From Acidobacteriaceae bacterium (lineage in GTDB: Bacteria > Acidobacteriota > Terriglobia > Terriglobales > Acidobacteriaceae), in contig PMOF01000142.1 of assembly GCA_003162495.1 (NCBI GenBank), positions 14,330 to 29,307 of the forward strand: DNA of 14,978 bases. Reading direction: 5' to 3'. This document shows, in pieces, positions 4,028 through 6,154 of this stretch. The translations under genes were made by a program, and so were the position numbers. The notes under the pieces are model-generated. The model made no database searches and was not told where the DNA came from. It saw only the letters and a list, made by a program, of their open reading frames with translations. The first letter of the stretch is position 1. Each line of letters opens with the position of its first letter.

Positions 4028-6154
4028 ATGCCCAAAGCGATCAAGTATGTCGAGAAGGCCGCCGTGTATGCGGCGCGTGGTGCGTGGGTGGTTTACGAGC
4101 GCCTGAACCGCATCAGCCCCAACGCCGGATTCATTCCCAAGTGGAGCGACAAACCGCTGCTGAAGAGCTACCAGAAAGAGAAGCCGCCGCTGGGCTGGCC
4201 GCGCACCACGGATTCGCTTTGTCCAAAGTGCGTGCCCGAGATTCGCAAGCAGATCCTGGACGGCAAGCTGCCTCACGAAGTGCTGCTCAACGAAAAAGTG
4301 GGCGAGATCAAGGCCCAGATCATCGAGCGCGACGGCAAAATTCTGATGGTGAAGGACTGCCCCAAGCATGGGCACTTTGAAGACGTGATGTCAATCGACA
4401 CCGCATTCTTCAAGCATCTCGAAGAGAGCTTCCCGGGCCGCGACCAGCGCGCCCACAACGATGAAAAGCTGCACCACCACGGGACCTCGACGGTGACGCA
4501 CGGACGCGGCTCGGTGCTGACCATCGACCTGACCAACCGCTGCAACATGATGTGCGATCCGTGCTTCATGGACGCCAATCAAGTGGGCTTCGTCCACGAA
4601 CTGACGTGGGACGAAATCAAGACCATGCTGGACAATGCGATCACCATCAAGCCGCGGCGGCAGATGAGCGTGCAGTTCAGTGGCGGCGAGCCGACGCTGT
4701 CGCCGTACTTCCTGGACGCGGTAGCCTACTCGCGCAAGGTGGGCTACAACAGCGTGCAGGCTGCATCGAACGGAATTGAATTTGCCAAGAGCAAGGAACT
4801 TTGCCGGGCCGCCGCGGAGGCGGGCCTGCGTTATGTCTATCTGCAGTTTGACGGAATCGGCAACGCGGCCAACTCGCACCGCAAGGTGGGCAACCTGTTT
4901 GACGTGAAACTGCAGGCCATTAACAACCTGCACGAAGCGGGCGTGGACATTGTGCCGGTGACCACGATCATCAACGGCATTAACAACGAGCAAGTGGGGC
5001 GCATTATCGAATTCGCGCTCGACAATCCGAAGAAGATCAGCTTCCTCAGCTTCCAGCCGGTCAGCTTTACCGGCCGTGACGAGGACATTACCGACGACCG
5101 CCGCCAGGCGCAGCGCTACACGCTCTCGCACATGGCGCACGACGTGAAAAACCAGGTGGGCATCGGCGAGCCGGAGCGCGACTGGTTCCCGATCAGCTTT
5201 ATGAGCACCTTCTCGGATTGGGCCGATCTGATTCACGGGCCGGCTGCCGAGTGGGGCCAGTTGAGCTGCGGATGCCATCCGAATTGCGGCATCGGCATGG
5301 CGCTGATGATCGACAAGGAAACCAAGGAATCGGCGCCGGTGACGGCCTTCCTGGACATGAACAAGGTGGCCAAGGACCTGGCCAAGGTGAACGACGCAGC
5401 GCGCGGCAAATGGCTTTCGGTCGTCGGCTTCGGCCTGGCGCTGATGCGCAACTACGATCCTTTCATGTCGCCAACGCACTTCAAGATTACCGACATGATG
5501 CGCAAGATGGACAAGACCTTTAACGCCACCGGGAAAGACTACGGCAGCGTGAAGGGCGACCGCACCATCAAGGACATTGAGAAGCGCCGCGCCGATCGCT
5601 GGAATTTTCTGTTCATTGCCGGGATGTGGTTCCAGGACTTGTTCAACTACGACTTCCGCCGCACGGAGCAGTGCATTATTCCCTACGCCACGCAAGAGGG
5701 CGAGATCAGCTTCTGCGCGTATAACACGGGCGTGGGCTGGCGCAACATTATCGAGAAGATGCACATGACGGCGACTCTGACCAAATGGTACGAGGAGCAC
5801 GGCCGGCATGAGATCTTTGCGGGCGGCAAAAAGGTCAGCATGTCCCACGTGGGCCACGAGCTGAAGCTCAACATGGATCATGTGAACTCCGAAGCCAACC
5901 ACACGCTCGACGATCTGGGCATCGCCAAGAACGCGCGCGAAGAGAAGATGCGCGCGCGCCAGGAAAAAACAAATCAGGACAAGCTGAAAGACGAAGCCGA
6001 AAACGCGCGCATGGCCAAGCTCTATCGCGAGCATGTGCTGGGCGAGAAGCCGGTGGATGGATTGGTGAGGTTGGATTCAATCCGCCCAGCCTCCAACAAC
6101 GCAACTTCGCCAATCAACCGGCAGACGGAGTCCGAGCCGGTGGCGGGCGACTGA
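4028..6154 (+). CDS. Radical SAM protein resembling tetraether synthase (Tes) / membrane-spanning-lipid enzymes
   Basis: 708 aa. The N-terminal part has a CPKC knuckle (Cys65, Cys68) matched by DCPKHGHFED (Cys111, His114, His116), like the rubredoxin-type metal site of archaeal Tes (MJ0619). The radical SAM core follows: LTNRCNMMCDPCFMD supplies the CxxxCxxC ligands Cys172, Cys176 and Cys179, and SGGEPT (219-222) is the SAM-binding GGE motif. Later cysteines, CGCHPNCG (414, 416, 420) and the pair Cys549/Cys563 in RTEQCIIPYA...ISFCAYN, are placed as for auxiliary Fe-S clusters. A charged, probably helical tail covers about 635-680. Tes couples lipid tails carbon-to-carbon through radical chemistry; a bacterial relative could form iso-diabolic acid or branched GDGT cores. 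The protein is longer than archaeal Tes (about 500 aa). The gene stands alone, between a 372-bp leader and a strong terminator. The superfamily is certain; the lipid role is inferred. Confidence 0.85.
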   Translation: MPKAIKYVEKAAVYAARGAWVVYERLNRISPNAGFIPKWSDKPLLKSYQKEKPPLGWPRTTDSLCPKCVPEIRKQILDGKLPHEVLLNEKVGEIKAQIIERDGKILMVKDCPKHGHFEDVMSIDTAFFKHLEESFPGRDQRAHNDEKLHHHGTSTVTHGRGSVLTIDLTNRCNMMCDPCFMDANQVGFVHELTWDEIKTMLDNAITIKPRRQMSVQFSGGEPTLSPYFLDAVAYSRKVGYNSVQAASNGIEFAKSKELCRAAAEAGLRYVYLQFDGIGNAANSHRKVGNLFDVKLQAINNLHEAGVDIVPVTTIINGINNEQVGRIIEFALDNPKKISFLSFQPVSFTGRDEDITDDRRQAQRYTLSHMAHDVKNQVGIGEPERDWFPISFMSTFSDWADLIHGPAAEWGQLSCGCHPNCGIGMALMIDKETKESAPVTAFLDMNKVAKDLAKVNDAARGKWLSVVGFGLALMRNYDPFMSPTHFKITDMMRKMDKTFNATGKDYGSVKGDRTIKDIEKRRADRWNFLFIAGMWFQDLFNYDFRRTEQCIIPYATQEGEISFCAYNTGVGWRNIIEKMHMTATLTKWYEEHGRHEIFAGGKKVSMSHVGHELKLNMDHVNSEANHTLDDLGIAKNAREEKMRARQEKTNQDKLKDEAENARMAKLYREHVLGEKPVDGLVRLDSIRPASNNATSPINRQTESEPVAGD

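Follow-up and report, generated by a model that had tools for sequence, protein, structure and literature searches.

Which enzyme makes iso-diabolic acid in Acidobacteria? The question is raised by a window of 14,978 nucleotides (the whole stretch analysed here; positions 14,330 to 29,307, forward strand, of contig PMOF01000142.1, assembly GCA_003162495.1) from a soil bacterium of the Acidobacteriaceae, which holds a gene for a 708-residue radical S-adenosylmethionine (SAM) protein related to the archaeal tetraether synthase Tes. Iso-diabolic acid, 13,16-dimethyl octacosanedioic acid, is among the chief membrane constituents of these bacteria and equals two iso-C15 chains joined at their terminal methyls, the kind of carbon at which archaeal Tes also joins tails. 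It looks like the archaeal join made between two iso-C15 tails, and branched glycerol dialkyl glycerol tetraethers (brGDGTs) resembling it are widely used climate proxies (PMC13274423; this and the other papers are cited from excerpts). The likeness of iso-C15 and archaeal tails was noted by Zeng et al. (PMC8941075), and in 2022 the condensing enzyme of Acidobacteria was called 'still unknown' (PMC10087280). We consider that the protein is probably a Tes-family radical SAM enzyme that joins two iso-C15 acyl chain ends of membrane phospholipids into iso-diabolic acid. A single deletable gene in culturable strains makes the question testable.

Family and metal sites of the 708-residue protein

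The open reading frame (ORF) is complete (Table 1). An in-frame TTG at 4010 offers an alternative start; the ATG at 4028, and with it the length of 708 residues, is correct, because the ortholog alignment begins there. Translation and this alignment bear out every motif that an earlier note on the locus had named: C65-P-K-C68, C111-P-K-H114-GHFED, C172x3C176x2C179, GGEP (219-222), C414-G-C416-H-P-N-C420-G, C549 and C563. These motifs are no product of chance: there are Pfam matches to Radical_SAM (E 3.9e-19) and to the N-terminal zinc ribbon of HMPTM (Zn_ribbon_HMPTM, E 2.1e-13). The best NCBIfam model is tetraether synthase Tes (NF045702; E 6.4e-95), whose curated cut-off of 450 bits is missed at 318.6 bits; the second best, TrsS (NF045646), gives 207 bits against a cut-off of 490. 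NirJ, AhbC/D, MoaA, PqqE and other radical SAM families were rejected: among 25 of the 38 families listed, all but two Tes models and TrsS scored at most 77.1 bits, far below their cut-offs. Among solved structures archaeal Tes MJ0619 (7TOL, 7TOM) was the sole strong match (7TOL, E 3.6e-59 over residues 93-588), followed by MoaA at E 3.1e-06. An AlphaFold2 model was too poor for judging a lipid tunnel of the Tes type (two hydrophobic pockets, one ending at the 5'-dA carbon), with a mean predicted local distance difference test score (pLDDT) of 55.6 and a predicted template modelling (TM) score of 0.51 (input 58 rows from the window and related loci, all close relatives); Foldseek with this model gave 7TOM as best match (E 8.7e-20, TM scores of only 0.33 and 0.43), consistent with the sequence result and used no further. 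A scan of viral contigs for distant relatives yielded two short matches, which were set aside.

Judged by its sequence, the product is a Tes relative, homologous to MJ0619 and outside other proven radical SAM families, which agrees with the earlier assignment to Tes-like radical SAM enzymes; on the same ground it is not a standard Tes. Tes scores were bimodal among the matches listed for a phylum sample (396 genomes drawn evenly from Acidobacteriota; 80% completeness was requested, and the source genome, at 71%, was included nonetheless): 37 genomes lay at 472–619 bits (standard Tes), and the rest, including the long type of the window protein, at 350 bits or below. A quick tree of 76 rows placed the long type on one side of a fully supported branch, with a long-branch warning. 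In a careful tree (41 hand-picked rows, rooted on MJ0619, the columns of a lost cluster site removed; L114, L121-L123, L174 and L175 left out), long-type and intermediate rows formed one fully supported group of 23 within acidobacterial Tes. Both trees cover only residues 35-512 of the crystallised MJ0619 chain. The window protein fell among acidobacterial Tes and not in a radical SAM clade of another proven reaction; phylogeny was one of the checks that the earlier note had proposed.

We compared metal sites in a survey of 156 aligned rows (matches of at least 450 residues and at least 100 bits; rows with identical cores dropped, the copy in the window's genome kept), with 116 long-type, 9 intermediate and 21 standard acidobacterial Tes rows (the 250-330-bit group), plus eight other bacterial rows (L114, which lacks the N-terminal set, and seven low scorers, four of them with N-terminal Cys). 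MJ0619 joins terminal carbons of lipid tails via an intermediate with a substrate carbon bonded to cluster sulfur; besides the radical SAM cluster and a rubredoxin site on C9/C12/C33/H36 it has two further clusters, one N-terminal (on C73/C77/C80 plus a His) and one C-terminal (with the labile Met439), and both Met439 and Tyr459 are fully conserved across 1000 archaeal homologs (PMC9433317). Position suggests C338, C455 and C470 as the C-terminal cluster ligands of MJ0619; Met439 is named in its paper. In our alignment C111/H114 correspond to C33/H36, C172/C176/C179 to the radical SAM cluster, M533 to Met439 and Y553 to Tyr459. The rubredoxin-like site (C65, C68, C111, H114) and the radical SAM Cx3Cx2C are kept in all 125 clade rows (116/116 long-type, 9/9 intermediate), and C420, M533, C549, Y553 and C563 are invariant in the same 125; these are counts of residues, from which the metal is inferred.

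The N-terminal auxiliary cluster ligands, in contrast, are lost: C73/C77/C80 of MJ0619 align with K147/H151/S154, and none of the three positions is Cys in any of the 125 rows, whereas standard acidobacterial Tes keeps all sites, this cluster included, in 21/21 rows. Because these ligands are absent from the clade, its members have ligands for two [4Fe-4S] clusters, not for the three cluster sites that the earlier note had proposed to look for. The loss is best seen as one change, since long-type and intermediate rows form one group inside acidobacterial Tes. Apart from this, the window protein is longer than archaeal Tes (also called GDGT-MAS) in three places: some 56 residues are added ahead of the rubredoxin site, the loop that separates the two halves of that site is extended, and a tail of about 100 residues follows at the C-terminus. 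A helix predicted in the N-terminal extension exceeds shuffled versions of itself in hydrophobic moment (p<0.05) in 57/58 rows and has pLDDT block means of 86, 91 and 79 in the otherwise poor model; such an amphipathic helix is a possible membrane anchor.

Could the clade be a degenerate or repurposed Tes relative that couples no lipids, for example an accessory electron-transfer protein or a regulator? Such decay occurs in the lineage: a 40% paralog of the long type in the window's genus (L114, 6131-8044 (-), genome G008) retains its rubredoxin site and its radical SAM site, carries Ser at each of four C-terminal positions examined (the equivalents of C338, M439, C455 and C470) and lacks the N-terminal set, and is apparently, by its sequence, a natural Tes relative without auxiliary clusters. 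The 125 clade rows, however, keep the rubredoxin, radical SAM and C-terminal positions throughout, and the gene is under purifying selection, with nonsynonymous divergence (dN, 0.06-0.11) a tenth or less of synonymous divergence (dS, 0.6-1.2) against six relatives. We regard degeneration as highly improbable.

Another radical SAM enzyme, of the Mss type or unrelated, might make iso-diabolic acid, and the window protein would then modify tails in some other way, for instance by an intramolecular or a different C-C bond. The distinct enzyme Mss does couple tails in Bacillota (PMC13274423), and loss of the N-terminal cluster sets our clade apart. The diabolic acid maker Thermotoga maritima has no Tes-model match at E 1e-20 (at 1e-3, 14/14 control genomes match), so a coupling enzyme may be too distant for these searches. 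Against this, the Met and Tyr that are fully conserved in archaeal Tes are also invariant in the clade, and in Edaphobacter modestus a search with the Tes model at E<=1e-20 gives the long-type gene alone, and one with the TrsS model at E<=1e-12 gives, besides it, a single match of 67.5 bits. We hold that a different coupling enzyme is unlikely.

Distribution of the two Tes types and of an ether-lipid marker

For counts over the phylum sample, long type meant a best E of about 1e-197 or below, so the intermediate group is included; two fragments (G247, G330) were counted as without it. It occurred in 47/47 genomes of the window's family and in 185/396 over the phylum (the 47/47 rests on the match list and on the kinship-ordered list of non-matches, 20 of 188, which starts at 'same phylum'). 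In a closer set with less complete genomes, 35/41 had a match; among genomes with a completeness of 90% or more and a contamination of 5% or less it was 22/22. In the order of G451, a metagenome-assembled genome (MAG) titled Bryobacterales, 144/150 genomes had a Tes-family match; 23 had standard Tes, a few of them standard only.

The two types also occur side by side. Long-type and standard genes lie within 6 kb of each other in five genomes of two orders (two of the five share a genus), with gaps of about 0.25 kb (G297), 3.4 kb (G155) and 5.7 kb (G110) by ORFs and of less than 1 kb (G568, G586) by match coordinates; we take this neighbourhood as a functional link between the types. In one genome of Edaphobacter aggregans (G434) a second Tes-like ORF of 402 residues (L173, 6997-8202), shorter than the full-length gene, is a truncated copy or a separate short paralog.

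To see which type accompanies ether lipids we used PF09989, which co-occurs with PF01869 in 4/4 acidobacterial proteins scanned, an architecture that we take to be PlsA/Ger-like. The marker is imperfect: T. maritima, whose PlsA-like gene is discussed in PMC8788747, matches at E 1e-10, and so does the control Lactococcus lactis, with the controls Thermus composti and Deinobacterium chartae matching at 1e-3. PF09989 was present in 15/15 genomes with both Tes types, 13/22 with standard only, 24/170 with long only and 37/189 with neither, and so in 28/37 with standard Tes overall; Fisher's test on these counts ignores shared ancestry. Within the window's family it was found in 3/3 genomes with standard Tes and in 6/44 without, and it was not found in the source genome, of which the assembly is 71% complete. 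The ether marker is thus associated with standard Tes and not with the long-type clade.

In one genus standard Tes adjoins a PF09989 gene (L190, 3184-8162 (-), in G235, where the two are about 0.25 kb apart; and G330:C59:1631-6031), a candidate bacterial tetraether pair. Separately, a PF09989 gene is found at a distance of 10-14 kb from a Tes-like radical SAM gene (31-32%) in 3/3 cases (L188, 300-19047, in G011; G019:C22; G019:C308). Between or beside these genes in L188 are a glycosyltransferase, a FabZ-like ORF (by eye), an MMPL exporter and a ketoreductase-type gene, and the stretch is possibly an unusual lipid or aryl-polyene-like cluster.

The marker bears on whether the protein is the acidobacterial tetraether synthase proper, coupling preformed iso-C15 diethers as archaeal Tes couples archaeol, in which case the gene would mark brGDGT producers. 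Homology to Tes favours this, and Tes homologs of E. aggregans, Koribacter and Solibacter were proposed for brGDGTs in 2022 by Zeng et al. (PMC8941075) and Halamka et al. (PMC10087280). The proposal includes an E. aggregans homolog at 32% identity, probably the long-type ortholog, since the ortholog of the window protein is the only full-length Tes-family match in the strain that we examined. E. aggregans, a species reported to contain brGDGT as well as ether-bound iso-diabolic acid (PMC13274423), carries both the long-type gene and a PF09989 gene; another study detected none of these ethers in its strains, E. aggregans included (PMC11354219). PF09989, which is only a proxy for ether synthesis, is nevertheless absent from 146/170 genomes with the long type alone. 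It is likewise absent from 15 of 17 named isolates with the gene (present in E. aggregans DSM 19364 and E. lichenicola M8UP30), although these isolates are no independent test of gene carriage, having been found through it. Furthermore, of 17 cultures of subdivisions 1 and 3 (SD1/SD3) with abundant iso-diabolic acid, brGDGT occurred in two, in small amounts (PMC13274423). We think it quite unlikely, slightly more so than a different coupling enzyme, that the protein is a tetraether synthase as such.

The idea in the earlier note of tail-to-tail coupling in bacteria stands as regards the coupling residues, which are invariant; where it touches on brGDGTs, the genomic pattern points elsewhere, as the ether marker follows standard Tes. 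A bacterial candidate was not new, given the proposals of 2022. In the excerpts of that literature we did not meet a division into two clades, an absence of the N-terminal cluster or the assignment to ester-bound iso-diabolic acid, though Sahonero-Canavesi 2022, on Mss, may cover some of the proteins concerned. In a survey, bacterial Tes counts as unconfirmed (PMC11868695).

Proposed reaction and lipids of the carriers

Tail-to-tail coupling is the best reading of the clade because the residues named for archaeal coupling are invariant in it, and the archaeal mechanism is the natural proposal because the radical SAM cluster, the C-terminal cluster positions and the Met/Tyr pair are kept. By analogy with MJ0619, SAM would be cleaved at the C172/C176/C179 cluster, and the 5'-deoxyadenosyl radical would abstract hydrogen from the terminal methyl of one iso-branched tail. 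The C-terminal cluster (C420, C549, C563 and the labile M533) would keep the carbon radical in the form of a carbon-sulfur bond until the other tail, activated by a second SAM, couples with it. Electrons would pass by way of the rubredoxin-like iron, the archaeal N-terminal auxiliary cluster would be dispensed with, and the N-terminal helix may dock the enzyme on the membrane. Homology, the sites kept and lost, the clade and its distribution are shown by the sequences; substrate, reaction and docking are inferred. Most hosts would obtain iso-diabolic acid in ester linkage; to make ethers and brGDGTs, additional enzymes would be required, namely a PF09989-type ester reductase and, in some hosts, standard Tes. 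The genomic pattern favours this ester-bound acid over the synthesis of tetraethers (brGDGTs) proper.

The lipids of carriers are consistent with this proposal. Iso-diabolic acid makes up 30.4% in E. modestus DSM 18101 and 26.4% in E. aggregans DSM 19364 (PMC11354219), both of which carry the long-type gene. Strains of Occallatibacter and Terracidiphilus have 26.8-49.2% (PMC12935467), and the range over tabulated strains is 11.8-49.2% of fatty acids (PMC12935467, PMC11354219). In Chloracidobacterium validum iso-diabolic acid is among the primary fatty acids (PMC12816986), and a genome put forward as this species (G131) has the long-type gene and no PF09989 match.

Several observations weigh against the assignment of iso-diabolic acid synthesis to the long type. 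The same Chloracidobacterium genome also has two TrsS-like genes. Solibacter usitatus makes brGDGTs with iso-diabolic acid undetectable, and has two Tes homologs (PMC10087280). Koribacter versatilis makes iso-diabolic tetraesters, and its published Tes homolog, at 42%, is probably standard; standard Tes may thus do the same job. In another family of the window's order (f2, 14 genomes), four genomes have the long type, six have instead a 37-38% relative of the standard type, and four have neither; the six relatives, placed by tree and sites and not by score, group with standard Tes and keep its sites, so that the two types seem to substitute for each other within one family. The gene is not singled out by its distribution either, because its presence in the families that produce iso-diabolic acid is nearly universal, while at E<=1e-30 no match was obtained in 2/25 genomes of the window's own genus, with a completeness of 80% and 85%. 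The ether marker is also loose at both ends, with 9/37 standard-Tes genomes lacking PF09989 (six in family f7, all of its standard-Tes genomes seen) and 37/189 genomes with neither Tes type carrying it. Finally, the lost cluster could mean a changed reaction, and in the excerpts of the literature examined we met no activity, knockout or heterologous test of any clade member.

The wider version of the proposal, which we put forward tentatively and at somewhat less than even chances, is that the clade is a dedicated acidobacterial iso-diabolic acid synthase, a widespread ester coupler that arose with one cluster loss, and that standard Tes and PF09989-type reductases serve the ether (brGDGT) branch. 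If so, one could foretell from its genes whether an acidobacterium makes tetraesters or tetraethers, and with an ester-type clade told apart from an ether-type one the brGDGT potential of genomes would be assessed differently. Coupling would moreover be possible without the N-terminal cluster of Tes, which bears on the mechanism.

Several groups of enzymes invite comparison. Standard acidobacterial Tes is of the same family and the nearest relative on the tree; unlike the long type, it keeps the N-terminal cluster and is tied to PF09989. In one genome (L164, 3-7969, in G352) genes resembling, by eye, 2-oxo acid dehydrogenase E1 alpha, E1 beta and E2 are found about 3 kb away from standard Tes, and these could feed iso-branched fatty acid synthesis. 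Mss, the membrane-spanning lipid synthase of Bacillota, has the same proposed reaction on iso-C15 phospholipids; Mss models are reported with a Tes-like catalytic architecture (PMC13274423), and a survey screened Mss apart from Tes (PMC11868695). Gms, the glycerol monoalkyl glycerol tetraether (GMGT) synthase, compared here by description, likewise forms a lipid C-C bond by radical SAM chemistry with auxiliary clusters, and is described as SPASM-type with its cap domain on the side opposite to that in Tes (PMC11186832). As for TrsS, separate TrsS-like genes (299.8-312.4 bits) were present in 3/10 genomes tested.

Coordinates, neighbours and relatives of the gene

Table 1. The gene and the sites within it, in positions of the window.
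Feature	Position	Strand	Basis
Tes-like radical SAM protein, long-type clade, 708 residues	4028..6154, stop codon included	+	profiles, structure matches, trees
Predicted amphipathic N-terminal helix, residues 3-27, within an extension absent from archaeal Tes	4034..4108	+	hydrophobic moment, pLDDT
C65 and C68, first half of rubredoxin-like iron site	4220..4231	+	C in 116/116 long-type, 9/9 intermediate rows
C111 and H114, second half of rubredoxin-like site (MJ0619 C33, H36)	4358..4369	+	alignment
Residues 147-156, place of the lost N-terminal auxiliary [4Fe-4S] site	4466..4495	+	K147/H151/S154; 125/125 rows
C172, C176, C179, radical SAM [4Fe-4S] motif Cx3Cx2C	4541..4564	+	Pfam, alignment
GGEP motif, residues 219-222	4682..4693	+	ORF translation, alignment
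CGCHPNCG, residues 414-421	5267..5290	+	alignment
M533, equivalent of the labile cluster ligand Met439 of MJ0619	5624..5626	+	alignment
C-terminal cluster stretch with C549, Y553, C563	5672..5716	+	alignment
C-terminal extension past the Tes core, residues 606-708, charged, variable among relatives	5843..6151	+	alignment

Window neighbours with a Pfam match are a PmbA/TldD piece, DUF1761, a DPBB/SPOR (RlpA-like) gene, DinB, a WYL regulator and ribosomal L9. An operon with lipid genes was dropped as a candidate, since these neighbours and a comparison of the flanks of 56 long-type loci say little. The commonest flanking ORF families at these loci were one of 267 residues on the other strand (22/56; probably the RlpA-like gene, to judge from its place and length), one of 317 residues (19/56), on the same strand and upstream of the long-type gene, and one of 196 residues (18/56); several other recurrent families were overlapping frames. 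A hypothetical ORF of the window at 2669-3655 (+), with no Pfam match, may belong to the 317-residue upstream family and is a candidate only.

The source genome is a 2.82-Mb assembly of 330 contigs, 71% complete, in which we found no further Tes-level match, only two weak ones (57.5 and 45.1 bits). Its acidobacterial origin, judged probable in the earlier note from the letters alone, is well supported: 77 of the 80 best related loci kept have acidobacterial titles, at 76-93% identity (best segment, named genome contigs). Terracidiphilus MAGs, Acidicapsa, Granulicella, Edaphobacter, Bryocella and Terriglobus are among these 80 relatives, and two MAGs titled Terracidiphilus have orthologs 91% identical to the window protein. 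Long-type genes at 80-82% identity also occurred on two contigs titled Rhodanobacteraceae and one titled Verrucomicrobia (L049, L064, L083), which are probably misbinned or mislabelled acidobacterial contigs.

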